From: Parasphingorhabdus litoris DSM 22379
GTDB lineage: Bacteria > Pseudomonadota > Alphaproteobacteria > Sphingomonadales > Sphingomonadaceae
Assembly: GCF_020906275.1 (NCBI RefSeq)
Contig: NZ_CP086727.1
Span: 868,001-932,000 of the forward strand
DNA length: 64,000 nt
Reading direction: 5' to 3'
In this document: positions 35,773 to 50,284 of the stretch, piece after piece
How positions within the stretch are numbered: position 1 is the first letter of the stretch
Layout: the number at the start of each line of letters is the position of its first letter
The notes under the pieces: generated by a model
Databases searched by the model: none
Seen by the model: the letters and a program-made list of their open reading frames with translations, nothing else
Told to the model about the DNA's origin: nothing
Position numbers and translations under genes: made by a program

Positions 35773-35958
35773 CGTCTTTTTCTTTCACAAATTTATCGTT
35801 TTTCTTTGACCCTAACATGTTGAAAGTACATCGCTTTCGATAAAAATGGCACTTATCCGCCATTTTTTAATGACTCTTCAATGACAGTTTCATTACAGTT
35901 ATGTTGCAAAATAATTCACAAAAGTGTAACAATAGCGCAAAGAAACAGGAGAGTGAGT

Positions 35959-36333
35959 ATGAAAAACGCGAAGATTGTGGCCGTTGCTGTGGGCCTGACC
36001 ATGGCTGCCTTGCCGGGCCTCGCACAGGCGCAGGATGGTGAAATTGGTTATGAGAAAGGCGCACTGGCTTATGATGCGCTGATGTCTGGCGACAATCAGG
36101 CCGCAGTTGAAAAGCTGGAAAGTGGGCAGCTCTCCGATCCCGCTGTCATGATCAATCTGGGACAGGCTTATGCTCGCACCGGACGCACTGGCGATGCAGC
36201 GAAAATGTTCACGGCGGCGATGAACAGCAACCGCAGCTTTGATCTCGTGCTGGCCGATGGTCAGGTGATCGATTCTCGCAAGGCTGCCAAGATCGCCTTG
36301 AACAATCTCAACGAACGGATGGCTTCGCGCTAA
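35959..36333 (+). CDS. Small exported TPR-like protein
   Basis: The ATG at 35959 with ACAGGAGAG upstream starts a signal peptide (MKNAKIVAVAVGLTMAALPGLAQAQ). The frame is open 26 codons upstream but without signal-like content. The mature part of about 100 residues is helical: EKGALAYDALMSGDNQAAVEKLESG and DPAVMINLGQAYARTGRTGDAAKMFTAAM read as tetratricopeptide-like hairpins. It is probably periplasmic. It is followed by a strong terminator, then by the lipoprotein and TonB receptor genes; it may serve the same system but has its own transcript end. Confidence 0.75.
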   Translation: MKNAKIVAVAVGLTMAALPGLAQAQDGEIGYEKGALAYDALMSGDNQAAVEKLESGQLSDPAVMINLGQAYARTGRTGDAAKMFTAAMNSNRSFDLVLADGQVIDSRKAAKIALNNLNERMASR

Positions 36334-36359
36334 ACCGACAAATCCTATCATTATGATTA

Positions 36360-36391
36360 GGCGGTCGCTTCTGCGGCCGCCGTTTTTGTTT
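36360..36391 (+). terminator. Rho-independent terminator after the TPR-like gene
   Basis: Nine-base stem GGCGGTCGC/GCGGCCGCC with one G-T pair, tetraloop TTCT, then GTTTTTGTTT. It starts 26 bases after the stop codon. Confidence 0.85.
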
Positions 36392-36441
36392 CAACAAAAT
36401 TTCCTGTGATGTATTTTTGCACTGCAGCATGAAAAACAAAG

Positions 36442-36463
36442 CGCTTTGGCGGCTCCCAAAGCG
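36442..36463. other. Hairpin in the leader region of the PT-linker lipoprotein
   Basis: The 301-base stretch 36334-36634 holds the terminator above and this eight-base stem CGCTTTGG/CCAAAGCG with a six-base loop, about 170 bases before the lipoprotein start. No T-run follows. It could be a leader structure or operator. I see no gene in the stretch. Confidence 0.3.
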
Positions 36464-36634
36464 ACTGCAATAATCCTGAAATATTTTTGTCTCCAAAGAG
36501 TCATGCAAACAGCATCGGCGGGTCATTTGACGCGCCTAGTGCCCGTTGCAGAAGGCGATGGGGGCATCTTTGATTCGTTTCCACATCATCTGATCTGAAA
36601 TGTTTGAAATCAGTAATCTGCGGAGACTTGATCC

Positions 36635-38167
36635 ATGTTGAATAAGCAAATTCGTTCTGTACTTTTCGCTGGTGTTGCAGCGATTGCGGTGACCGCTTGT
36701 GGTGCCGATGATGTCGCATCGCCGGGTGAAGGTGTTGTGATCGTTCCACCAACCCCGACGCCCACACCTACGCCGACACCAACCCCCACGCCGACCCCTA
36801 CACCAACTGGTCCGGCTGCTGATTGTCCAACGGGTACAGCCAATGTGGGGACGATCAACACCAACAATAATCAGGAATTGCGTAACTGCCAACTTTCTGG
36901 CGTCATCACCGGCAATCTGGTGCTCCCCGCGCGCGATGGTACTATCTATTCGTTGAACGGAGCCGTTGAGGTTGGAGTTGATGGCGGCGCGACTGGGGTT
37001 CTGACGGTTGAACCGGGCGTGGTGATGTTTGGTTCCTCCGGCGGCGACTTCCTATATGTCAATCGAGGGTCTCAGATATTCGCCGAGGGCACGGCATCAG
37101 AGCCTATCATCATGACCTCGCGTCAAAATATCGAAGGCGCAAATAACGAGAACAGCATCGGTCAATGGGGCGGTGTAGTGATTCTAGGACGGGCTCCTAT
37201 TTCTGATTGTGCAACGGGTGGGGCATCCAACCCAGGCGGCGCCCGGACGGATTGTGAGGCCATCGTAGAAGGGCCGATCAACCGGCTTTATGGCGGCACA
37301 CAACCAAATGATTCAAGCGGCAGAATGTCTTATATTCAGGTCCGCTATCCCGGCTTCGAAATCTCTCCCGGCAATGAGCTGAACGGGATTACAATGGCCG
37401 GTATCGGTAGCGGCACATTCTTCCAGAATATTCAGGTGCACAACAGCTCTGATGACGGCGTCGAGTGGTTCGGTGGCCGCGTGAACGGTAAGAATATAGC
37501 GTTGACCGGCAATGATGATGATTCGGTCGACTCTGACTCCGGCTACAAGGGCAACAACCAATTTGTACTGGTCGTGCAACGCGCTGGTGGCGGGGATCAC
37601 GTCATGGAAGCGGATTCCAACGGCGATGAAGACGCAGAACCGCGTCAGGATCACAAACTGGCCAACGTAACGTTTGTGTCCAGTGGTCAGGATCACGTCA
37701 TCCTGCTGCGTGGTGGTGGTGATTACGCCTTCTATAACAGCGTATTTAACAGCCCGGCCGCTTGTATCGATATCGATAGTGCGACCACCATCCAGGCCGC
37801 GGGCGCTGCACCCGATGAAAATGGTCCTCCGGTATTTGAATCGTTGTTCATGAGCTGTGCCACATCATTTGTGGATGATAGCAACATAACCGTGGCGCAA
37901 ATCGAGACCCTGTTCAATGCCGGTACCAACAATACCGCATCTGGCACCTCCACATTAGCCAGCGGTGGCGGTTCTTCAGCCCTGGCTGCATTTATCAACG
38001 GCGCCAACGAGAATGCTGTGACCCCGTTTGCGGTCAGCGGCGTGGACGCTTTCTTCGAAGACGCGGCTTATATCGGCGCAGTCCAAGATGCGAACGACAC
38101 TCGTTTCCAGGGCTGGACATGTGGTCTCTATGCCGATGACTGCGCGACCGCTCCAACAATTGGTTGA
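36635..38167 (+). CDS. Lipoprotein with (Pro-Thr)10 linker, beta-helix-like
   Basis: A 510-residue protein. The signal peptide ends AIAVTAC with Cys22 as lipidation site, followed by a short acidic stretch and ten consecutive Pro-Thr units (39-58). The rest is rich in short strands, Gly and Asn, with GGDFLYVNRGSQIFAEGTA, HNSSDDGVEWFGGRVNG and an Asp-rich GNDDDSVDSDSGY, and looks like a parallel beta-helix with possible calcium sites. Four or more cysteines could pair. I do not recognise a function. It sits between two terminators, just upstream of a TonB-dependent receptor and the type II secretion operon, which makes it a candidate secreted or surface-displayed partner. Confidence 0.8.
   Translation: MLNKQIRSVLFAGVAAIAVTACGADDVASPGEGVVIVPPTPTPTPTPTPTPTPTPTPTGPAADCPTGTANVGTINTNNNQELRNCQLSGVITGNLVLPARDGTIYSLNGAVEVGVDGGATGVLTVEPGVVMFGSSGGDFLYVNRGSQIFAEGTASEPIIMTSRQNIEGANNENSIGQWGGVVILGRAPISDCATGGASNPGGARTDCEAIVEGPINRLYGGTQPNDSSGRMSYIQVRYPGFEISPGNELNGITMAGIGSGTFFQNIQVHNSSDDGVEWFGGRVNGKNIALTGNDDDSVDSDSGYKGNNQFVLVVQRAGGGDHVMEADSNGDEDAEPRQDHKLANVTFVSSGQDHVILLRGGGDYAFYNSVFNSPAACIDIDSATTIQAAGAAPDENGPPVFESLFMSCATSFVDDSNITVAQIETLFNAGTNNTASGTSTLASGGGSSALAAFINGANENAVTPFAVSGVDAFFEDAAYIGAVQDANDTRFQGWTCGLYADDCATAPTIG
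36749..36808 (+). repeat. Pro-Thr codon repeat
   Basis: Ten consecutive Pro-Thr codon pairs with varied third bases, so the repeat is kept at the protein rather than the DNA level. Such linkers usually hold a domain away from a membrane anchor. Confidence 0.9.
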
Positions 38168-38183
38168 TTGAAAACATAGTGTT

Positions 38184-38219
38184 GGGATGGCGGCTCGCAC
38201 AGTCGCCATCCCCTTTTTT
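38184..38219 (+). terminator. Rho-independent terminator between lipoprotein and TonB receptor genes
   Basis: Perfect nine-base stem GGGATGGCG/CGCCATCCC with an 11-base loop and a run of six T. It ends 24 bases before the receptor ATG, so receptor expression depends on read-through or a promoter inside this short gap. Confidence 0.85.
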
Positions 38220-38242
38220 GAGTTATAAAAAGGAATAATCCG

Positions 38243-40957
38243 ATGACGAAGCGGGCATCTTTGGTCACCAGTCTATTTTTGAGCACAGCGCTGTTTTCGC
38301 CTGCTGCATTGGCCCAGGCAACTGCCGACAGCGCGGCGGCCCAGCCCGACCAGGCCGACGGGACTCCGGATGGAGAACCGTTGCCGGATGAGGATGTTGA
38401 TATCTCCGCGCCCGGCGGAGATTTTAGCGGCGAAATCATTGTTCGTGGACGGTTCATCCCTAATCCGATCCGCGCAACTTCCGAAGTTGTGTCCGTTCTG
38501 GGTGAGGAAGAAATTGCCCGTGCAGCAGATGGCGATATTGCCGGTTCGCTTCAGCGGGTAACCGGTCTCAGCGTTGTCGGTGGCCGTTTTGTTTTCGTTC
38601 GCGGTCTGGGTGAGCGCTATTCTCTGGCGCTGCTCAATGGCCTGCCATTGCCTTCTCCCGAACCCCTGCGACGTGTGGTGCCGCTGGATATTTTTCCGAC
38701 CAGTGTAATTGCTTCGACCGTGGTTCAGAAAAGCTACTCGGTAAACTATCCCGGTGAATTCGGTGGCGGTGTGATCAATCTGACCACAAAGTCGACGCCG
38801 GAAGAACCCTTCCTGAAAATAAGTGCGGGCATCAGCGGGGATACTGAGACTACCGGAAATCTGGGTTATACCTACGACGGCTCTGACCTCGACATTCTCG
38901 GTTATGACAGCGGCGTTCGGGATATCCCGGATGGTTTGGCTCGTGCGATAGACCAGAATGTTCCCATCTCGGTCGGTCCAAACTTCACGAGCGAAGACTT
39001 GCAAAGTTTCGCCGCTAGCCTGAATAATGCGCAAACCTCTCTAATCCAGCGTAACAATGATATCCCCGCGAATTTCTCGGCCGAGATTACTGGCGGAACG
39101 ACCCTTGATCTGGGGGATACATTTTTGGGGATCATTGCCACAGCCGGATATGAAAATAGCTGGCGGACACGCGGCGGTTTGCAGCAAACGTCGCAAGGTA
39201 TTGTCAATATCGATGGTACGGATGGCTTGCGCCCCGACCAGAATTTCAACTTCCTGACAACCGAGAATCGGATAATCGTCAATGGCCTGCTGGCTCTGTC
39301 GGCGGAAATTGGCGAGCACAAGCTGCGTCTGACCAATCTCTACATTCACGACACGGTCAAAGATGCTAACATCAAGCAGGGCATTGATGCGATTAACGTC
39401 GACGAAGAAACTCTGCTTAACCAAGGGCGGACCAGCTGGTTTGAACGGCAACTCTACACCACGCAATTTGTCGGCGAGTTCAAGTTTGATGAATTTTCCG
39501 TCGATCTGCGCGGCAGTTATGCCAATTCAAAACGCGACGCGCCTTATGAGCGCACATATAGCTATGCTTTCGACCGGCTTCTCGCGAATGACTTTGTCAA
39601 CGATCTGACCTCGCCCGGCGAATCCGCACGTGTTCGATTCAGTAATCTAAATGATGACGTCTATGGTGCTGGCATTGACTTTGGATATGAAACCAACATC
39701 GGCGTACCGGTCAACCTGACGGCGGGCTACAGCTACTATCTCAATGATCGTAATGCAGAGCGTAGGGACTTCCGTTTTGTTCCCGCAAACGGATTACCGG
39801 TTCCGTTTGATCAGCAGCGGATTGATTTCCTGCTGTCCGATTTCAACGTGTTCACACAGAATATCGAGCTACGCGAAGTGGCAACCCAGCTGTCGGTTCC
39901 CGCGTACACTGCCGAATTGGAAATCCATGCTGGCTATGGTCAGATTGATGCCGAATTGGCCGATGGGCTGCGTTTGAATGTCGGCGTACGATATGAAGAC
40001 GCTCAACAGGAAGTATCGCCAATCACATTGACTGGCAGCCAAGCGGCCGTTGCAACCGGTCTGGACAATGATTACTGGCTTCCCGCCGGAACGCTGACCT
40101 GGAATTTTGCGGATGATATGCAATTCCGGTTGGCGGCATCTAAAACAGTTGCGCGGCCGCAATTCCGTGAATTGGCACCGCAACAATTTCTCGATCTGGA
40201 GACTGACCGAACCTTCATCGGTAACCCGCTGCTGCAAGACAGTGAGCTGATCAATCTGGAAGGCCGGTTCGAATATTATATCGGCCGCGGCGAGCGGATC
40301 ACATTGGCCGGTTTTTACAAGGATATCGACAATCCGATTGAAAATGTCGCCTTCGTTCAAGGCGGGGGAACTTTGTTCACTGGTTTCTCCAACGCGCCCA
40401 ATGCAAAGCTCTATGGCGCAGAAGTCGAGCTGGTTAAATATTTCCCGCTAGATACCGTATTTGGCGGCGAGTTTTTTGAAGATCGCCGTTTGCTCCTTGC
40501 TGCAAATTACACCTACACCAAATCGGAAATAAATGTTGCCGATGGTGATACAGCGATCAACCCGGTGACTCTGCAACCTACCAGTGCGTCGAACCTGTTT
40601 GACGATGGTGATCGTCTGACGGGGCAGTCGAGACATGTCGCCAACCTGCAATTCGGTATGGAAGCAGAAGAAGGCCTTTCACAGCAGACGATTTTGGTGA
40701 CCTATAACAGTCCGCGCGTTACCGCTCGCGGGCCGCAGGACCAGCCGGACCTCATCGAACGTACGGGTTGGCAGTTGGATTTTGTCATGCGGGAACAACT
40801 CCAAATTGCAGGTCAGGAGTTTGAGTTGAAATTTGAAGCGCGTAACATTCTGGGCACGGATTATCGCGAATCTCAAACTTTGAACAATACGCGCATCATC
40901 AATAACGGTTATGATATCGGAACACGCTTTTCGATGAGCATTGGTATCAACTTCTGA
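38243..40957 (+). CDS. TonB-dependent outer-membrane receptor
   Basis: A 904-residue receptor. Signal peptide 1-25 (ending AALAQ), an acidic Pro/Asp/Gly-rich stretch, a TonB-box-like GEIIVRG, a plug domain (SVLGEEEIARAADGDIAGSLQRVTG and FVRGLGERYSLALLNGLPLPSPEPLRRVVPLD), then a 22-strand barrel ending in the terminal aromatic FSMSIGINF. It would import or move a ligand across the outer membrane using TonB energy. No metabolic genes or regulator are beside it; instead it lies between the PT-linker lipoprotein and gspC. Its ligand is unknown. Confidence 0.92.
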   Translation: MTKRASLVTSLFLSTALFSPAALAQATADSAAAQPDQADGTPDGEPLPDEDVDISAPGGDFSGEIIVRGRFIPNPIRATSEVVSVLGEEEIARAADGDIAGSLQRVTGLSVVGGRFVFVRGLGERYSLALLNGLPLPSPEPLRRVVPLDIFPTSVIASTVVQKSYSVNYPGEFGGGVINLTTKSTPEEPFLKISAGISGDTETTGNLGYTYDGSDLDILGYDSGVRDIPDGLARAIDQNVPISVGPNFTSEDLQSFAASLNNAQTSLIQRNNDIPANFSAEITGGTTLDLGDTFLGIIATAGYENSWRTRGGLQQTSQGIVNIDGTDGLRPDQNFNFLTTENRIIVNGLLALSAEIGEHKLRLTNLYIHDTVKDANIKQGIDAINVDEETLLNQGRTSWFERQLYTTQFVGEFKFDEFSVDLRGSYANSKRDAPYERTYSYAFDRLLANDFVNDLTSPGESARVRFSNLNDDVYGAGIDFGYETNIGVPVNLTAGYSYYLNDRNAERRDFRFVPANGLPVPFDQQRIDFLLSDFNVFTQNIELREVATQLSVPAYTAELEIHAGYGQIDAELADGLRLNVGVRYEDAQQEVSPITLTGSQAAVATGLDNDYWLPAGTLTWNFADDMQFRLAASKTVARPQFRELAPQQFLDLETDRTFIGNPLLQDSELINLEGRFEYYIGRGERITLAGFYKDIDNPIENVAFVQGGGTLFTGFSNAPNAKLYGAEVELVKYFPLDTVFGGEFFEDRRLLLAANYTYTKSEINVADGDTAINPVTLQPTSASNLFDDGDRLTGQSRHVANLQFGMEAEEGLSQQTILVTYNSPRVTARGPQDQPDLIERTGWQLDFVMREQLQIAGQEFELKFEARNILGTDYRESQTLNNTRIINNGYDIGTRFSMSIGINF

Positions 40958-41075
40958 TCATTGGATTTTGTTACTTAATCGCTGAAAAGAGCCACTGACA
41001 GGGCGGTGTAATTTTTCTGTCATCAATGAGTCGCAGGTTGGTCACCAAATCGTTATAGCAACTCTGGGAAGCAGA

Positions 41076-41936
41076 GTGCGGGGATTCGTGGTTATTCAAT
41101 CTTCTAACCAATTTTTGGTAAAGGGCCGGGCGCTAACCATGCCGGGCCTTTATCCGGTTTTACTGGGCATATTGGCAGTTTTGCTGGTGATACAAGCGAT
41201 CAGACTGATCTGGTTGTTCGTCACGCCCTTGGGACCGGTGGGGGATTGGCAAGCGCGGGAGGTGCAGATTTTGTCACCGCAATCGCGTTTGTCGCTGTTT
41301 AACAGTTTCGATCCATTTTACCGCAAAGGCCCGGCGACCACCGCCAATGTCGTCACTTCGCTGCAACTCACCCTGTTCGGCATTAGAATGAATGAGGGCT
41401 CCGGCCTGGGATCAGCCATATTGGCTGGGCCAGATGGTGTCCAACAAAGCTATGCCGTGGGTGAGGAGATCATGTCTGGTGTAAAACTGGATGTCGTCAA
41501 CTTTGATCATGTTGTAATTGATCGCGGTGGCACCAGAGAGAGTCTGTATCTGGATCAATCGATACCAGCGCAAACGGTCGGCGGTGAGGATGCAGAAACA
41601 TCTCAACCAGCCGGATTGCAGACTCCATCACGGGAAAGCCCACTTGGGCAAGCTCCGGCGGCGGCAGTGATTGCCAATGCCGTTGATCTGGCACCGCGCA
41701 GCGCGGATGGCAAGGTGACGGGCATTGTCGTGTCACCTCGCGGTGATGGTGACTTGTTTCGGGCGGCCGGTTTCATGGATGGCGATATCATCGTTTCGGT
41801 CAACGGGCAGCCAATCTCGTCGGCCAGTGATATCGCGGCTTTGAAAAACCAGCTTGCACCGGGTGGCCGGGTCTCTGTTGAAGTAGAGCGTGGTGCCGAT
41901 ACTGTTCCCATAGCGATTAATATGGGAACAGAATGA
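41076..41936 (+). CDS. gspC: Type II secretion protein GspC
   Basis: A 286-residue bitopic inner-membrane protein linking the inner platform to the secretin. One membrane helix (about 25-48), a homology region in the middle (about 90-155) and a C-terminal PDZ domain (about 205-285, VSPRGDGDLFRAAGFMDGD, VNGQPISSASD). The start is uncertain: GTG 41076 or ATG 41139 immediately before the helix. Its stop overlaps the gspD start by four bases. Confidence 0.87.
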   Translation: MRGFVVIQSSNQFLVKGRALTMPGLYPVLLGILAVLLVIQAIRLIWLFVTPLGPVGDWQAREVQILSPQSRLSLFNSFDPFYRKGPATTANVVTSLQLTLFGIRMNEGSGLGSAILAGPDGVQQSYAVGEEIMSGVKLDVVNFDHVVIDRGGTRESLYLDQSIPAQTVGGEDAETSQPAGLQTPSRESPLGQAPAAAVIANAVDLAPRSADGKVTGIVVSPRGDGDLFRAAGFMDGDIIVSVNGQPISSASDIAALKNQLAPGGRVSVEVERGADTVPIAINMGTE

Positions 41937-44137
41937 TGAAGCACATACTTACAAAAATGGCGGCCAAATGGTCGGTATCGCTGGCGGTTCTTGGGCCTTT
42001 GGCCATTGCGCCCGCTTTTGCGCAGCATAGCCTGAACGTGCGCGATGCAGATATCCGCGCCTTTGTGCAGGATGCGGCCCGGGTCACCGGCCGTACCTTC
42101 ATCGTCGATAGTCGGGTGCAGGGTAAAGTGTCTGTTGTGACGGACCGGCCACTATCCCGGTCCGAATATTTTGAAATTTTCTTGTCGACGTTGCGGGCCA
42201 ATAATCTGGTGGCCATTCCAACCACGCGCGGGGCTTATCGTATTCAGCCTGCCGATGGTGCAGCGACGCAGCCGACACGTATCGGAACGCGGCAATCCGC
42301 GGCCAATCAGTTTGTCACTGAAGTCGTCCGACTGAAATCTATTGAAGCAACCGCTGCCCTGGAAACACTACGCCCACTCATCAGTAAGCAAGGCGCGATT
42401 ACCGCCAATCGTAACGCCAACAGTCTGGTGATCGTCGATTATGCAGACAATATTCGCCGTGTTCGCGCGCTTGTCGCCAAGATCGATAAAGATAGCGCTG
42501 CATCGACAATCGTGAATCTTAGAAATGCGGGCGCGCGTGAAATCGCAACCTCGTTGCAGGCACTGGCTCAACAGGGTGGGGACGGAACGATTGCACCGGT
42601 CACGGTTGTCCCGATTGATAGTAGCAATAGTATTGCTCTGCGCGGCGACCCGGGCGCGGTGACCAAATTTGCGCAGATGGCGCGGGAACTCGACCAGCGC
42701 GCAGAATCCGGCACGGAAATCCGGGTCCATCAACTGGACTATGCGAATGCGGAACAGCTGCTACCCGTGATTGAACAACTAATGGGGCAGGGCAGCGCCG
42801 GATCTCCAGCCACTGCTCCTTCATCCGTTGCGCCCGCGTCCGGAACAAACGGCGGTAACGGAGGTTCGACGCCTGCGGTCACGCCGATATCGACGGGCGG
42901 TAGTTCTGGCAATGGTATATCCCGTCACGGCCCGGCCGTTGTCACGCGTTATGAAGGCACAAATGCCATCATTGTTGCCGCCAATCCCGATGTACAGCGT
43001 ATGGTTGGCGAATTAATCCGGCAGCTTGATACGCGTCAGGAGCAAGTCTCGGTCGAAGCGATTATCGTTGAAATTTCGGACTCGCTGGCCCGCGAACTCG
43101 GTATCCAGTTCCTTATCGGCGGCAAGGACACGCCGTTTGCGGTCACCAATTTCTCTAACGCAGGTCCGAATATTGTTGATATTGCGGGAGGCCTGCTGGC
43201 CGACCAATTTGATACCACGACGACCACAACAACTGATACGGCAACGACGACCACGACAAATAGCGCAGTGGGTGACAAGTTACTCGAAAATGCGGCTGAT
43301 GCGATATTGGGGGCGCGTGGATCGTTTACTGGATTTGCAACCTCGTTAGGCGGCGATACGATTTTGGGGACGATCATCAATGCCGTTCAGCGGGATTCCG
43401 ATTCCAACCTGCTGTCCACGCCATCCCTGACGGTGAACAATAATCTGAAAGGCAGCATCCTTTTCGGTCAGGAAATTCCGGTTTCGACCGGCGAAGCCTT
43501 GTCCGACAATTTCGACAATGCTTTCCGCACGATCCAACGCCAGAATGTCGGTATCGAGCTGGAAGTTACACCGCAAATCAATGCGGGCGACGAGGTTCGG
43601 CTGGAACTGCGTCAGGAGGTTAGCTCGATTGCTGGTCCGGTGTCAGACGATTTCAACGAACTGATCATCAACAAGCGCGAAATTCAGACCACTGTTACCG
43701 TTGGTGATGGTGAGATTATCGCTCTAGGCGGTTTGCTTGACGATAATGAGCGCCGCACAATCGAGAAAATCCCGTTTTTGGGGGACATTCCTCTGATAGG
43801 CGAGCTGTTCAAGTCGCGAGGCAGGGAACGGGTTAAAACCAATTTGATGGTCTTTATCCGGCCGAAAATAATGCGCAGTCGCTCGGATGCCAGAGCCTTT
43901 TCGGCGCGGCGCTATGGCTATATTCGCAACCGGCAGCTTCGCCGTGATCCGGAACTCGAACCATCATTGGATGTGCTTGTCCGCGACTATATGGGCGCTG
44001 TGCCTCCTGCCGCCGAAACACAGCCAGGGGATCAGATTATTTATGCGCCCGGCGCTGTCGCTGCTCCGCAAAATAGCGGTGCCGTCCAGCCTGTGCCCGT
44101 TTCACCCAGCAATACCGATGCGGAGAAGGATGACTGA
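41933..44137 (+). CDS. gspD: Type II secretion secretin GspD
   Basis: A 734-residue outer-membrane channel protein. Signal peptide about 1-30 (ending PAFAQ), N0 domain LNVRDADIRAFVQDAARVTG, repeated N1-N3 domains with a Gly/Ser/Thr-rich insert (about 280-325), a Thr/Asp-rich insert near 425-445, and the secretin core: NLLSTPSLTVNNN, LFGQEIPVSTG, NVGIELEVTPQIN and GEIIALGGLLDD. The C-terminal 60 residues are a charged/proline-rich extension that may contact a pilotin, which I do not see here. One base overlap with gspE. Confidence 0.95.
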   Translation: MMKHILTKMAAKWSVSLAVLGPLAIAPAFAQHSLNVRDADIRAFVQDAARVTGRTFIVDSRVQGKVSVVTDRPLSRSEYFEIFLSTLRANNLVAIPTTRGAYRIQPADGAATQPTRIGTRQSAANQFVTEVVRLKSIEATAALETLRPLISKQGAITANRNANSLVIVDYADNIRRVRALVAKIDKDSAASTIVNLRNAGAREIATSLQALAQQGGDGTIAPVTVVPIDSSNSIALRGDPGAVTKFAQMARELDQRAESGTEIRVHQLDYANAEQLLPVIEQLMGQGSAGSPATAPSSVAPASGTNGGNGGSTPAVTPISTGGSSGNGISRHGPAVVTRYEGTNAIIVAANPDVQRMVGELIRQLDTRQEQVSVEAIIVEISDSLARELGIQFLIGGKDTPFAVTNFSNAGPNIVDIAGGLLADQFDTTTTTTTDTATTTTTNSAVGDKLLENAADAILGARGSFTGFATSLGGDTILGTIINAVQRDSDSNLLSTPSLTVNNNLKGSILFGQEIPVSTGEALSDNFDNAFRTIQRQNVGIELEVTPQINAGDEVRLELRQEVSSIAGPVSDDFNELIINKREIQTTVTVGDGEIIALGGLLDDNERRTIEKIPFLGDIPLIGELFKSRGRERVKTNLMVFIRPKIMRSRSDARAFSARRYGYIRNRQLRRDPELEPSLDVLVRDYMGAVPPAAETQPGDQIIYAPGAVAAPQNSGAVQPVPVSPSNTDAEKDD

Positions 44138-45702
44138 TGAAAATCGCGAAGGGAACAGATGCAGAAGTTTCCGGCGATAATGACAAGCCTGTGAGCGAAG
44201 AACTGGCGTCTTCGCCCCTGGTAGATATTCCCTATGCTTTTGCGCGCGATCACGGTGTGTTGTTGATGCGCAGCGATGGCGAACGTCTGTCGGTTGCCAT
44301 GCGAGAGGGGGCCGATCCACAGGCCCTGCTGGAACTGCGCCGCTATCTTGCCATGCCTTTTGATGTTGATCTGGTATCTCCAGAGGATTTTGAACGGTCT
44401 TTGTCCGATCATTATGCAATGGATGGCAGTGCCGCTGCTATGGCCGGTGACATGAGCCTCAGCAATGATGCGCTTGATGATATTGCTGGCGATATTCCAA
44501 GTGCCGAAGACTTGCTCGACAGCGCGGATGATGCGCCGACCATCCGGTTGATCAATGGAATCATCGCGGAAGCCGCGCGCCAGGGGGCTTCGGACATCCA
44601 CATCGAGCCCTATGAAACTGGCTTGGTGGTGCGGATGCGTGTCGATGGCGTATTGCAGGAAAAACTGCGCATGCCACCGCATGTCGCCTCTGTCATCGTC
44701 AACCGGATCAAGGTCATGGCGCGGCTTGATATTGCCGAACGGCGTATCCCGCAGGATGGCAGGATCAGCCTGACTCTGGCTGGAAAACTTCTGGATGTGC
44801 GTGTTTCTACTTTGCCCAATCGTGCCAATGAGCGTGTCGTTATGCGCATATTGGACAAGGAGAGCGCGTCGATATCGCTGGACCTGCTCGGCATGTCCGA
44901 AACAACGCATGAAATTCTGACCGAAGTCTTGGCCGAACCCAATGGTATCATTCTCGTTACTGGGCCCACCGGTTCGGGTAAAACGACAAGCCTCTATGCC
45001 GGCCTGAAACAGTTGAACGATGGCAGCCGGAATATCCTGACCGTCGAAGACCCGGTGGAATATGCGATTGAAGGCATTGGTCAGACGCAGGTTAACTCCA
45101 AAGTTGGTCTGACCTTCGCCGCTGGATTGCGGGCGATCTTGCGTCAGGATCCTGACGTCGTGATGGTCGGGGAAATTCGTGACCGGGAGACGGCGGAAAT
45201 CGCCGTACAGGCGTCGCTGACCGGGCATTTGGTGCTGTCCACCGTCCATACCAATGACGCGGTCGGCGCGATTACGCGGATGCGAGATATGAAGGTCGAA
45301 CCGTTTTTGCTTGCCTCTACCCTGCGGGCCGTCATCGCTCAGCGGCTGGTGCGCAAACTTTGCCCGCATTGCCGCGTCCCGATACAGGCGGACGGCAGTC
45401 TTGCTTCCTTGCTGGGCTTTGACAATGGTACCGTGGTGTATCGGGAAGTGGGCTGTGACGAATGTAATCACACCGGCTTTCAGGGCCGAATTGGTGTCTT
45501 CGAGGCAATCCGCGTCGATGAAACCATCCGCAAATTGATCAATGATGGCGGCGATGAAGCGCGTATTGCGGCCCATGCGTTTCTGAAAAAGCCCAATCTC
45601 GGTTCAGCAGCACGTGCACTGGTCCGTGAAGGCTTGACCACCGCGGAAGAAGGCATTCGTATCTCCCGCCGCGAAGTTCTGGACGAACAGATCGATGCCT
45701 GA
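44137..45702 (+). CDS. gspE: Type II secretion ATPase GspE
   Basis: A 521-residue cytoplasmic ATPase that powers pseudopilus assembly. N-terminal N1E domain, then the RecA-like core with Walker A GPTGSGKTTSL, Asp box ILTVEDPVEYAIEGIGQTQ, Walker B ILRQDPDVVMVGEIRDRETA and His box GHLVLSTVHTNDA. The tetracysteine zinc site CPHC...CDEC is present (about 409-448). The gene overlaps gspF by eight bases. It is full length for the family. Confidence 0.97.
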   Translation: MKIAKGTDAEVSGDNDKPVSEELASSPLVDIPYAFARDHGVLLMRSDGERLSVAMREGADPQALLELRRYLAMPFDVDLVSPEDFERSLSDHYAMDGSAAAMAGDMSLSNDALDDIAGDIPSAEDLLDSADDAPTIRLINGIIAEAARQGASDIHIEPYETGLVVRMRVDGVLQEKLRMPPHVASVIVNRIKVMARLDIAERRIPQDGRISLTLAGKLLDVRVSTLPNRANERVVMRILDKESASISLDLLGMSETTHEILTEVLAEPNGIILVTGPTGSGKTTSLYAGLKQLNDGSRNILTVEDPVEYAIEGIGQTQVNSKVGLTFAAGLRAILRQDPDVVMVGEIRDRETAEIAVQASLTGHLVLSTVHTNDAVGAITRMRDMKVEPFLLASTLRAVIAQRLVRKLCPHCRVPIQADGSLASLLGFDNGTVVYREVGCDECNHTGFQGRIGVFEAIRVDETIRKLINDGGDEARIAAHAFLKKPNLGSAARALVREGLTTAEEGIRISRREVLDEQIDA

Positions 45703-46909
45703 TTTTTCCTATACCGCTATCGATCCCAAGGGGCGCGAGAAAACTGGCCGGTTAGCGGCGGACAGCAATGACGCGGCGCGGGCGAAGCTGGCGGAGCGCA
45801 ATTTTTATGTCGTAAATGTCGAAACAGCACAGGGCGCGGAAGCAAAACCGGCACGTTCACTATTTGGTCCCAAAAAACTGCGGTCCAAAGAACTGACCTT
45901 GTTCACGCGCCAACTGTCATCGCTGGTGCAAGTCAGCCCGCTGGAAGAAGCGTTGCGGACGATCGGCAATCAGAACGAAAAAGCCCATGTCCGGGATCGG
46001 ATCGGAGCGGTCCATGGTGGTGTTATCGAAGGGCAGCGACTGGCCGAGGCCATGCGCCGTGAACCGGCAAGCTTTCCGCCGCTCTATCGCGCGATGATTT
46101 CGGCTGGGGAAAGCTCCGGCACATTGCCGGACATCACCGAGCGCCTGGCCAATCTTCTCGAACGCCAAGCCGAGATGCGCGGTAAGCTCATCAGCGCACT
46201 GGCTTATCCGATCGTTCTCGCCCTGGTCGCGATTGTGGTCGTGGCCTTGTTGATGATTGCAGTTGTTCCCAAAGTCGTGGAACAATTTGATGATGTGAAC
46301 CAGCAGCTTCCATTCGTTACCCGGCTGGTGATCGGCATTTCCGATTTTCTCGCCAATTGGTGGTGGGCGCTTCTTGCTGCTATCGGGGTTCTTGTTCTGA
46401 TCACCTGGCGCGCTTTGAAAGAGCCGCATATCCGATATCGCTTCGACAGCTTCCTACTCCGCCTTCCGTTTATCGGCCGCTTGCTGCGGGATTTAAACGC
46501 TGCTCGGCTTGCCCGAACACTGTCGACCATGGTGGCTAGCCGGTTGCCGATAATGGAAGGGCTGCGGCTGACAACCAATACGATTAGCAATTCAGTGCTG
46601 CGCAAGGCATCGGAAGATATGGTGGAGGCTATCCGCGGGGGTGGAAGTCTTTCGAAAGCACTCAAGAATACCGGCGTTTTCCCGCCGATGTTGGTCTATC
46701 TCACCGCCAGCGGTGAAGCATCGGGCCAGCTTGATGATATGCTGGCCCGGGCAGCGGATTATCTGGAACGCGAATTTGACAATTTTACCTCGACCGCTTT
46801 GTCACTGCTGGAACCATTGATCATCGTTTTTCTGGGCGGTGTTGTTGCGGTTGTAATTTTGGCTATATTGCTTCCGATATTACAGCTTCAGAATCTTGCC
46901 GGACTATAG
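45695..46909 (+). CDS. gspF: Type II secretion platform protein GspF
   Basis: A 404-residue polytopic inner-membrane protein with two repeated GspF domains (about 70-190 and 272-395) and three membrane helices (about 170-192, 222-242 and 372-398). LTLFTRQLSSLVQVSPLEEAL, ISAGESSGTLPDITERLANLLERQ and LTASGEASGQLDDMLARAADYLER are the family blocks. It forms the base on which the pseudopilus assembles and contacts GspE. Confidence 0.96.
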   Translation: MPDFSYTAIDPKGREKTGRLAADSNDAARAKLAERNFYVVNVETAQGAEAKPARSLFGPKKLRSKELTLFTRQLSSLVQVSPLEEALRTIGNQNEKAHVRDRIGAVHGGVIEGQRLAEAMRREPASFPPLYRAMISAGESSGTLPDITERLANLLERQAEMRGKLISALAYPIVLALVAIVVVALLMIAVVPKVVEQFDDVNQQLPFVTRLVIGISDFLANWWWALLAAIGVLVLITWRALKEPHIRYRFDSFLLRLPFIGRLLRDLNAARLARTLSTMVASRLPIMEGLRLTTNTISNSVLRKASEDMVEAIRGGGSLSKALKNTGVFPPMLVYLTASGEASGQLDDMLARAADYLEREFDNFTSTALSLLEPLIIVFLGGVVAVVILAILLPILQLQNLAGL

Positions 46910-46931
46910 GACCGGATGGATAGGAAAATTT

Positions 46932-47417
46932 ATGCTCAAGATTTTATTTAATCTTTTCACCGATATGAGCCGTCCTTTGAGGCGTAAAAATCAAAAGAAG
47001 CCAAAGGCGAACGGGTTCACATTGGTTGAACTGATGGTGGTCATTTTTATCCTCGGACTGTTGACGACTGTCGTTGTTATCAATGTCCTGCCTAGTCAGG
47101 ATCGCGCAATGGTTGAAAAGGCACGAGCAGATATCGCTACATTGGGCCAGGCGCTGGAAATGTACCGGCTCGATAACCTGACATATCCTACTTCTGCCGA
47201 CGGCTTGGGGGCGTTGACCAACGCACCTGCGTCGCTTCCCCCGTCCGCGCGATATCGGCAAGGCGGCTATATCAAGAAGCTTCCCGATGATCCGTGGGGA
47301 CGACCGTATCAATATGATAATCCCGGACGCAATGGCCCTGGTTTTGATCTCTATTCGCTGGGTGCAGACGGCGCACCGGGTGGTGAAGACGACGACGCAG
47401 ATATCTATGCCGAGTAA
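46932..47417 (+). CDS. gspG: Type II secretion major pseudopilin GspG
   Basis: A 161-residue prepilin. The cleavage site is G before FTLVELMVVIFILGLL, giving the type IV pilin N-terminal helix with Glu at +5. The mature part has the GspG calcium-site region LGADGAPGGEDDDADI and DPWGRPYQY. I chose ATG 46932 (GGATAGGA site), which gives a leader of about 28 residues, longer and more basic than usual; ATG 46965 would give a 17-residue leader, and a TTG at 46896 is also in frame. It would be processed by a GspO/PilD peptidase, which is not in this window. Confidence 0.93.
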   Translation: MLKILFNLFTDMSRPLRRKNQKKPKANGFTLVELMVVIFILGLLTTVVVINVLPSQDRAMVEKARADIATLGQALEMYRLDNLTYPTSADGLGALTNAPASLPPSARYRQGGYIKKLPDDPWGRPYQYDNPGRNGPGFDLYSLGADGAPGGEDDDADIYAE

Positions 47418-47449
47418 GCGAATTGCCAAAGGTGACATGGCGTCCAAAA

Positions 47450-47477
47450 TTGACTAGCTAACGGCTATAGACATAAT
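47450..47477 (+). promoter_or_regulatory. Possible promoter upstream of gspL
   Basis: TTGACT and CATAAT are separated by 16 bases in the 150-base gap between gspG and gspL, where tight gene coupling of the operon is broken. A reasonable but unverified sigma70-type candidate. Confidence 0.3.
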
Positions 47478-47567
47478 AAAGTTCAGCCGAGTCGGGGAGG
47501 TCATGTTGGAACAAAAACTGTTACAGCCTCTTGCCTGCCATCTACTGAACGGGGTCTTTGACAGCTA

Positions 47568-48698
47568 ATGTCGGTATCTCAAGTCCTTGTAACAGAGTTT
47601 CCCATAGCAGGGACAAAATCGCTGCAATGGTGGCTTGTCACCGACAGTGTGATCGAAGCCAAAGGCTGTGATTCAGACCCGCTGCTGGCTGCTGGCCTGA
47701 AACTACCATCAGCCAATGATGAGCCAATCGTGCATATTGCAATCATGTCCGCAGCGCAGGCAATTGTGCGCTGGCATGAAACACCGGAAGACCTGACCGA
47801 GCAGCAGGCATTGGCTGCGGCGCGTTTGGCAGCTCAGGATGATAGCCTGGACCCGGAAAACCTGCATATCGCTGCGATGATTGAAGATTCCGGCGAGACC
47901 ATTTCGGCTTCGGTCAGCATGACCGTCATGTCTGATGGCTTATCGCAACTGGAAACTCTCGGCATTGATCCCGATGCTATTATACCGGCTGGATGGCTGA
48001 TCCCGGCCGAAGAGGGTCAGGTCATTGCTGCGGATTTCGGTTTTGAAACAATTTTGCGGGGCGAGCAGATGATCGCGCCGGATGAACCATCCTTGCGGCC
48101 GCACCTGATCGGTGATCATAATGTTGCAAGCCTGACCGAAACGGGGATTGATGACGCACTGACGAGCGCAGCGACCAGCCGTGATGCGGTTAATCTGCGT
48201 TCTGCCCCATTTGCCAAAAAAGTCGATAAGTATATGACCGTCTCGCAAAAGCGGACCATGGCTTGGATGGCTGCTGCGCTTGTTCTGATATCTTTGCTGA
48301 TCCCAGCCGTGCAGTTGATCAAATATCATTGGGCTGCAGCTGATGCAGACGCTGCTGCTCTGGCCGCCGCGGAGCCGGTAATCGGGGCGGTAGAAAGCGT
48401 GGAAGAAGCTGATCGTTTGTTGAACGAACGGCTGGTTCAGGAAAATCGTGGTAATGTCGCCTTCCCAGTTCCGGCCTCTGCGCTATTCTCTGCCATTCAA
48501 AAGACTCAGGGCGTATCGATTGAACGGATCAGTTATCGCAAGGATGGTACTGTTTTCGCCGGACTTACCGCGGTGAGAAATGAGGATATGAACCCGGCTC
48601 TAATCGCGCTGCAAAATGCCGGATTTGTTATCACTGCAACTCCGCGGACCGATGCAACAGGGTCAGCTAAAGCTGATATTACGGTGCGTGCACCATGA
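47568..48698 (+). CDS. gspL: Type II secretion platform protein GspL
   Basis: A 376-residue bitopic protein. The N-terminal cytoplasmic actin-like domain (1-225) would bind GspE, followed by a membrane helix (about 232-250, MAWMAAALVLISLLIPAVQLI) and a periplasmic ferredoxin-like domain (about 290-375). Sequence conservation in this family is low; identity rests on architecture, length and its overlap with gspM. It starts 150 bases after gspG, where gspH-K genes would usually lie. Confidence 0.85.
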   Translation: MSVSQVLVTEFPIAGTKSLQWWLVTDSVIEAKGCDSDPLLAAGLKLPSANDEPIVHIAIMSAAQAIVRWHETPEDLTEQQALAAARLAAQDDSLDPENLHIAAMIEDSGETISASVSMTVMSDGLSQLETLGIDPDAIIPAGWLIPAEEGQVIAADFGFETILRGEQMIAPDEPSLRPHLIGDHNVASLTETGIDDALTSAATSRDAVNLRSAPFAKKVDKYMTVSQKRTMAWMAAALVLISLLIPAVQLIKYHWAAADADAAALAAAEPVIGAVESVEEADRLLNERLVQENRGNVAFPVPASALFSAIQKTQGVSIERISYRKDGTVFAGLTAVRNEDMNPALIALQNAGFVITATPRTDATGSAKADITVRAP

Positions 48699-49177
48699 TG
48701 GAATCGATCAAAAACTGGTTCCACGCGCTCAGCTCGCGGGAGAAAATACTCATTGGCGTCGGCGCTGTTCTGGCCGCCTTGGTAATCGGATATTACGCAA
48801 TCATTCTGCCCTTTATTAGCGCTTTTGCGTCGGCGGAGCAGCGTTATCAGCAGGCAACGGATGGCCAGGCACGGATTGAAGCGAAAGTGGAAGCGCTGAC
48901 CGCTCCGGCGGATGGCGCCGTCAAACCGGTCGCCGGACCACTGGATGTTTTTGTCAGTCAAAATGCCGGAGAAGCCGGTTTTGCCGTTGGTCGCCTTGAA
49001 CCGCAAACCAATGGTGCGGTCAGACTGACCATTACATCGGCCAAGCCAACCGCCTTGTTCGGCTGGCTCGCGAGACTGGAAAGCCGCGGTGTAGCGGTCG
49101 AAGAACTTGCTGTTAATCCAGGACCGAATGAGACGGTGACCGCGACGATAATATTGCGATTGATAGAACCAAGCTAA
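48695..49177 (+). CDS. gspM: Type II secretion protein GspM
   Basis: A 160-residue protein with a short cytoplasmic N-terminus (SIKNWFHALSSREK), one membrane helix (about 17-37), a helical segment, and a periplasmic ferredoxin-like domain (LEPQTNGAVRLTIT... LRLIEPS). This is the GspM plan; WFHALSSREK is the usual family start. Coupled to gspL by a four-base overlap. No gspN follows; the next gene is convergent, three bases away. Confidence 0.88.
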   Translation: MMESIKNWFHALSSREKILIGVGAVLAALVIGYYAIILPFISAFASAEQRYQQATDGQARIEAKVEALTAPADGAVKPVAGPLDVFVSQNAGEAGFAVGRLEPQTNGAVRLTITSAKPTALFGWLARLESRGVAVEELAVNPGPNETVTATIILRLIEPS

Positions 49178-49180
49178 GGG

Positions 49181-50284
49181 TCAGACCGTCTCGGAGGTTG
49201 CTTTTACTCCGCCAGGCACTGCGTCCTTGGCAAACATAACGCCACCATCATCCAGAGACATCGCCTCTGGGCTTGGTACGTCTGCGGTTTGTGGTGCATT
49301 CAGCTTCTTTTCTTGCACCCAATTGCCATCAGCATCGCGGACATATTTGGGCGCGCGCTGCACATTCCAGACCAGTCCCATTTTTTCCCATAACGAGATG
49401 ATGTAGCCGTTCACGTCCACTTCCCACCACATCATGCCGGCATAGGCCGAACGTGGGTGCTGATGGTGGTTGTTGTGCCAGCCATCGCCGAACGTCATCC
49501 ATGCCATGAACCAGTTATTGCGTGATCCATCTTTGGTTTTGAAACGCTGTGAGCCGAAGACATGGCCAACGCTGTTCACGCCCATCACAAAGTTCAGGAA
49601 GAAGAAATTACGGAAAAAACCGCCGATCAGGATAGTGCCGATAATATGTTCCGGTCCACCAAAGGCGAGCGCCCATAGTGCCGGAAGCACAACACTGGAA
49701 AAAATCGCGATCGACCAACGATGCTTGTGGCACCACAAGACCTGCGGGTCATCGATCAGACCTTTGCCGTAAACTTTCATGTCAGAAGTGGTGTTGTCGA
49801 ACAGCCAGCCGAAATGGGCAATGCCGAGGCCCTTCCATTTCGACATTTTCTTGCCATGCCCGTCAATATAAGGGCTATGTAGATCGCCAACGCGATCGGA
49901 AAAGGCATGGTGGCGGCGGTGATCGGCCGCCCATTTCAGCACGGATGCCTGACAGGCCATTTGTGCCATAATGCCGATTGCAAGGCGCATTTTCGGACCC
50001 GCTTCGAAGGCGCGATGTGTGTAAAAGCGGTGATAGCCAATGCCTACGCCCATGTTGATCAGAACATAACCAAAAAGGAAAGCGGACCATTCTACCCAGC
50101 CAGTAGCGTGAGTCAGCGTCCAATAAAGCGCGCCTAGCGATCCGATAACCATTGATGACAACAATATGCCATATTCGATACGCTTGGCTCGTGCGGCAGG
50201 TCCGCCGATGATCACGCCATGCTGCGGATGGACCTGTTCTGGTTCGAATTCATCGGGTTGAATGTCATGATAGGCCGTCGCCAT
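49181..50284 (-). CDS. Membrane fatty-acid (acyl-CoA/acyl-lipid) desaturase
   Basis: A 367-residue desaturase with the three histidine boxes of the delta-9 type: HRFYTH (about 86-91), HRRHH (about 123-127) and HNNHH (about 270-274). At least four membrane helices flank them. A non-haem diiron centre would introduce a double bond into saturated acyl chains, adjusting membrane fluidity. A tail of about 50 residues after the last box is polar. An inverted repeat lies about 80 bases upstream. Confidence 0.9.
   Translation of the reverse strand: MATAYHDIQPDEFEPEQVHPQHGVIIGGPAARAKRIEYGILLSSMVIGSLGALYWTLTHATGWVEWSAFLFGYVLINMGVGIGYHRFYTHRAFEAGPKMRLAIGIMAQMACQASVLKWAADHRRHHAFSDRVGDLHSPYIDGHGKKMSKWKGLGIAHFGWLFDNTTSDMKVYGKGLIDDPQVLWCHKHRWSIAIFSSVVLPALWALAFGGPEHIIGTILIGGFFRNFFFLNFVMGVNSVGHVFGSQRFKTKDGSRNNWFMAWMTFGDGWHNNHHQHPRSAYAGMMWWEVDVNGYIISLWEKMGLVWNVQRAPKYVRDADGNWVQEKKLNAPQTADVPSPEAMSLDDGGVMFAKDAVPGGVKATSETV

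Follow-up and report, generated by a model that had tools for sequence, protein, structure and literature searches.

The stretch analyzed here, 64,000 nucleotides of Parasphingorhabdus litoris DSM 22379 (NZ_CP086727.1, positions 868,001 to 932,000; hereafter the window), carries a type II secretion system (T2SS) operon of seven plus-strand genes, overlapping or closely spaced, in the order gspC-D-E-F-G-L-M (window positions 41076-49177, Table 1). This order, proposed in a preliminary description made from the sequence alone, was borne out by the open reading frames (ORFs) and by profile matches: scores of GspD, GspE, GspF and GspG are above the curated NCBIfam cut-offs, those of GspC and GspM only above the Pfam ones, and GspL stops just short in both databases, yet is correctly placed and conserved in position. 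The description had also placed no gspH, gspI, gspJ or gspK between gspG and gspL, and here too the analysis agrees. A Pfam and NCBIfam profile search found none of the four among the ten ORFs of 35881-49177, and no pilin-like peptide appears in the six frames of the 150-base gap, so that a gspH remnant at this place was rejected.

From this arrangement the description had concluded that the system is without minor pseudopilins, and had proposed either that the genes lie elsewhere or that pseudopilus assembly is initiated differently. The genome (one contig of 3,610,303 bases) contradicts the conclusion. It encodes a prepilin peptidase and all four minor pseudopilins, the latter in canonical gspH-gspI and gspJ-gspK pairs that are unlinked, and every one of the four exceeds its curated NCBIfam cut-off: GspH with 82 bits (cut-off 80), GspI with 79.8 (44.35), GspJ with 121.9 (64.85) and GspK with 250.4 (130). 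Pfam concurs for the two pairs (GspH, T2SSI, T2SSJ, T2SSK_1st and T2SSK), and solved T2SS pseudopilins are among the relatives of GspK (3ci0_K, E 1.2e-31), GspJ (5bw0_A, E 5.1e-19) and GspI (5bw0_B, E 2.3e-5). The type IV pilin N-terminal motif has eight matches genome-wide, and it was by reading around them that the two pairs were located. The matches divide between two T2SSs, four apiece: a second T2SS accounts for four, and the others are one each in the window GspG and the gspJ gene and two in gspH and gspI. The peptidase has both A24 domains and gave no NCBIfam match; a second A24 peptidase match was observed at 1.13 Mb. With the canonical core (GspD, E, F, G, C, L and M) in the window, the cluster is, as judged from sequence, very probably the main part of a canonical T2SS dispersed over five chromosomal places: gspCDEFG-LM, gspHI, gspJK, gspN and the peptidase gene.

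The dispersed genes are kept together through inheritance. Searches of 32 genus genomes detected GspG in all (in G131 as a 33-residue fragment only, which was excluded from the distance analysis), GspN likewise in all, GspK in 31 (missing from G129, 82% complete) and GspI in 30 (missing from G128 and G138, 89% and 73% complete). In the high-quality genomes, defined by a completeness of 90% or more and a contamination of 5% or less, each of the four proteins occurs in 24 of 24. On shared contigs, the distance from gspG to gspK ranges from 257,630 to 1,692,306 bases (16 genomes) and that from gspG to gspI from 289,565 to 1,269,247 bases (13 genomes), measured the shorter way round the circle in the seven genomes that have the genes on one long contig. 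Ratios of nonsynonymous to synonymous substitution rates, computed for five genome pairs, were 0.068-0.224 for gspH, 0.065-0.082 for gspI, 0.048-0.120 for gspJ (one pair saturated) and 0.049-0.106 for gspK, with 0.137-0.220 for gspG over three computable pairs; gspH, gspI, gspJ and gspK are under purifying selection. The genus holds a complete system at several distant loci, conserved across its genomes. What turned up elsewhere in the genome is accordingly a co-conserved gspHIJK set, the very finding that the description had set against its own claim, in the form of two pairs rather than one cluster; of its two proposals, location elsewhere holds and different initiation is not supported. Separately, G143 contig C4 (362-781) contains a second canonical gspG-like stretch of 67% identity, with one internal stop, near the contig start.

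The second T2SS of the same genome, strongly divergent, lies at L016 6769-16398 (genome about 3011768-3021397) in the order E-F-G-H-I-J-L-M-C-D-K. Secretin domains are present in its GspD, and its GspG scores above the NCBIfam cut-off; the profile matches of H, I and J are weak, C is just below its cut-off, L and K gave no match, and the letters E, F and M rest on position and look. The presence of this system at 3.01-3.02 Mb raises the question of whether the dispersed pairs belong to it or are shared with it, which we consider very unlikely, since it has minor-pilin-like genes of its own, three behind its gspG plus a K-like one closing the cluster, and the GspG of this system occurs in 5 of the 32 genus genomes (a lower bound, the query having been the window GspG) against 31 for the dispersed GspK. 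In the five genomes that have the second GspG sharing is conceivable; as a general supplier or user of tips the second T2SS was rejected on its occurrence in so few genomes. Adjoining it are six small ORFs of 125-171 amino acids (L016 2716-5181), most with signal-peptide-like starts by eye, which could be its substrates; the two that were searched gave no Pfam match.

To place the arrangement in its evolutionary context, the T2SS genes were followed through a sample of 119 genomes drawn evenly from the family, of which 59 gave a match to GspG and 51 to GspK. Linkage was counted in the 40 genomes whose GspK match reaches 130 bits, leaving out the 11 of the 51 with a lower score: at most 2,640 bases part gspK from gspG in 32, and in 8 the two are far apart or on different contigs. 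The gene order was read in 41 genomes (G117, G005, G099 and G106 entered the linkage count and stand outside this reading and the trees), and this comparison of the locus across sphingomonads, which the description had recommended, yielded linked and split arrangements, six of the split genomes, outside the window's genus, showing intermediate states. Among the 28 linked genomes, 24 have exactly C-D-E-F-G-H-I-J-K-L-M; the others are G020 and G052, without a recognized gspL, G034, cut by a contig end before gspD, and G076, with the H and I labels swapped. Gap lengths between gspG and gspL in relatives were taken between stop-to-stop frames and are lower bounds only. Tip genes are separated from gspG in all 13 split genomes, in several ways. 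In G087 and G111, HIJK and CDEFG-LM form two separate blocks; G023 and G108 have IJK apart, with gspH adjoining gspG; G001 and G095 share that pattern and have gspL detached as well, roughly 226 and 310 kb from gspG (L052-L055), with gspM not located; and in seven genomes of the window's genus HI and JK are each apart. The order of the main operon was read in nine genomes of the genus, with gspG and gspL neighbors in all nine (G134 and G146 were read for this operon only and stand outside the trees).

The surroundings of the genes suggest a common site of origin. Among the 13 split genomes, 12 have the gspJ-gspK part flanked by a Glu/Leu/Phe/Val-dehydrogenase gene on one side and by a 2OG-Fe(II)-oxygenase gene on the other, only the dehydrogenase being recognized beside it in G023. 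The whole operon occupies the interval between these same two genes in G067, G021, G055 and G081 and adjoins one or the other in G107, G057 and G076. G044 and G042 have the whole operon elsewhere, and in them the two genes are adjacent without a detected gsp gene in between; for G051, G077, G075 and G076 the dehydrogenase gene alone was recognized at this place. In the window's genus, gspHI adjoins an enoyl-CoA-hydratase-type gene in seven of seven genomes, with purU recognized on the other side in two. The simplest reading is that the dehydrogenase/oxygenase site is the old operon site. An ancestral operon would have stood between these genes, the C-G/L-M part would have left for another place, minor pseudopilin genes remaining where they were, and a later move would have taken gspHI of the window's genus to a third place. 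Such a stepwise break-up, with intermediates still visible among relatives, is a modest evolutionary result. A further reading, in which the sphingomonad family keeps T2SS operons at graded stages of break-up and tip-gene separation is adaptive, either by letting priming be regulated apart from channel and motor or by letting tips be exchanged between co-resident T2SSs, appears improbable to us.

Whether the operon broke up once or more often was approached with two trees of the gene-order set, one of D-E-F-G and one of H-I-J-K, built by a quick method without bootstrap. In each of them the split genomes fall within a single region. They disagree on the linked genome G051, which groups with the window's genus in the D-E-F-G tree (SH-aLRT, the Shimodaira-Hasegawa-like approximate likelihood ratio test, 98), where the label "linked" takes two changes, and stands outside the split clade in the H-I-J-K tree, where it takes one (support 93). 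A single clean origin of the split is thus not settled; the split may have arisen once, with change afterwards, or twice. The trees have 20 of 38 splits in common, against a mean of 0.378 and a maximum of 3 in 500 shuffles, as expected of any vertically inherited pair of gene sets.

The family comparison also bears on the proposal that the system works without minor pseudopilins, its GspG pseudopilus started otherwise and the dispersed H-I and J-K genes serving something else, to which we give almost no credence: no gspH-K stands in or beside the operon and gspG adjoins gspL throughout the genus genomes read, but the dispersed proteins pass the cut-offs of canonical T2SS profiles, GspK and GspI are conserved in every high-quality genus genome, the eight pilin-type motifs are all accounted for without a separate type IV pilus set, and gspK is close to gspG in most family genomes with a strong GspK match.

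In a canonical dispersed T2SS, the products of the distant genes would assemble with the window GspG. The HI and JK products would be processed by the prepilin peptidase and form the usual H-I-J-K tip complex, which would prime GspG polymerization through GspE/F/L/M, and substrates would then be driven through GspD, as in other T2SSs. In Pseudomonas, as reported in PMC6211770, the homologues of GspI and GspJ form the core of the tip, which is capped by the GspK homologue and has the GspH homologue at its base, facing the shaft; secretion requires the tip, and a mutant of the GspH homologue was almost without effect. That GspE/F/L/M drive GspG assembly under the secretin is well established for T2SSs (see also PMC6617341). 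Nothing in the sequence asks for another initiation route.

Several points weigh against the dispersed-system interpretation. Its support comes from genes, profile matches, co-conservation and comparative gene order, and co-conservation is evidence of shared inheritance, not of assembly. The genus-wide queries were G, K, I and N, GspH and GspJ having been read beside I and K in seven genomes. Some identifications are narrow, with gspL just under its cut-offs, gspC under that of NCBIfam and GspH barely passing; in addition, PF03934 alone also matches controls such as Bacillus subtilis and Lactococcus lactis, so that GspK is identified by its remaining profile matches and its PDB relative. Minor pseudopilins could in principle be shared with the second T2SS in the window genome. 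As for the history of the operon, only 7 of the 28 linked operons adjoin one or both of the old-site flanking genes (some stretches being cut), and the conflict over G051 leaves the number and direction of break-ups unsettled.

Table 1. Genes and features of the T2SS and its surroundings (window positions unless marked as genome positions; L numbers denote locus coordinates)
Feature	Position	Strand	Evidence and remarks
510-aa putative secreted/lipoprotein	36635..38167	+	Position of Caulobacter ElpS (cc0170); position only
TonB-dependent receptor	38243..40957	+	Position of Caulobacter cc0171; Pfam PF00593 E 6.1e-30; PF07715 E 4.8e-10
gspC with PDZ domain	41076..41936	+	PF11356 74.9 bits, cut-off 27; PF13180; TIGR01713 74.4 bits, under 101.6
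gspD secretin	41933..44137	+	TIGR02517 535.9 bits, cut-off 351.35
gspE ATPase	44137..45702	+	TIGR02533 645.6 bits, cut-off 630.25
gspF platform protein	45695..46909	+	TIGR02120 489.8 bits, cut-off 424
gspG major pseudopilin	46932..47417 (ATG; upstream TTG at 46896)	+	TIGR01710 167 bits, cut-off 88.85
Gap gspG-gspL, non-coding	47418..47567	.	150 bases; site of gspH-I-J-K in linked relatives
gspL	47568..48698	+	TIGR01709 63.5 bits, just below 65; Pfam T2SSL 23.1 bits, below 25.5; position and order kept in 9 genus genomes
gspM	48695..49177	+	PF04612 91.6 bits, cut-off 27.8; NCBIfam match weak
Fatty-acid desaturase, convergent, next after gspM	49181-50284	-	PF00487
gspO/pilD-type prepilin peptidase	genome 1524497-1525315 (L018 6498-7316)		Both A24 domains, PF06750 and PF01478
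gspJ-gspK pair	genome 2292525-2294191 (L003 11192-9526)	-	4-base overlap
gspN, alone, away from other gsp genes	genome 2648161-2648898 (L061 5162-5899)
gspH-gspI pair	genome 3375730-3376637 (L017 8638-7731)	-	4-base overlap

Upstream of the operon, the 510-amino-acid protein gave no Pfam or NCBIfam match at E<=0.01; with 7990 scored, 2592 relatives reached E<=1e-10. Of these, the best 120 carry the precomputed domain PF28492, and the named ones are mostly from Sphingomonadales or Hyphomonas. GspN has been tied to lipoprotein transport by the T2SS in a 2025 paper (PMC12802150), which would fit the lipoprotein-like gene at this place. Just 5' of that gene, at window positions 35881-36333, is a gene for a TPR-like protein with weak profile matches.

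Literature searches on minor pseudopilins of sphingomonads and on a Parasphingorhabdus T2SS gave no paper matching every term, and among the titles listed in broader searches none dealt with T2SS dispersal in the family, which is not proof that no such work exists; a scattered polysaccharide pathway in Sphingomonadaceae is, by its title, the topic of PMC5399355. The present case carries a warning, namely that minor pseudopilin genes missing from an operon are not thereby missing from the genome, and detection rules that require co-localization could score this T2SS as incomplete. One such rule is reported to have missed the Legionella T2SS, in a survey where 96.5% of detected T2SSs were single-locus (PMC4793230). 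The break-up in steps about a conserved site, which can be followed from genus to genus, also offers a clean natural example of the operon of a large machine coming apart without loss of its genes.

Among known systems, the Chlamydia-like T2SS without minor pseudopilins (PMC6668835) does not apply, as minor pilin homologues are recognizable in the genome. The T2SS of Caulobacter crescentus, as described in PMC2996285, has the same components as the window system, and cc0170 (elpS) and cc0171 stand 5' of its operon much as the secreted/lipoprotein and TonB-receptor genes do in the window, a likeness by position; homologues of cc0170 are reported to be similarly arranged in Sphingomonas alaskensis. 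Caulobacter differs in keeping gspC to gspN in alphabetical order in one cluster, whereas here H-I, J-K, N and O are apart. In Legionella pneumophila the T2SS is reported to be complete and scattered over five loci, like the present one (PMC6617341, PMC4793230), except that lspFGHIJK stay together there, while here gspG is parted from all four minor pseudopilin genes and H-I from J-K. The Acinetobacter T2SS, for which secretion was reported, is likewise spread over five distant loci conserved across species, with a type IV prepilin peptidase (PMC4713064); both it and the present system are conserved within their genus, and the likeness, Acinetobacter being another lineage, is at the level of locus number. 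The Parasphingorhabdus system is another dispersed T2SS of this already known kind, in a different lineage.

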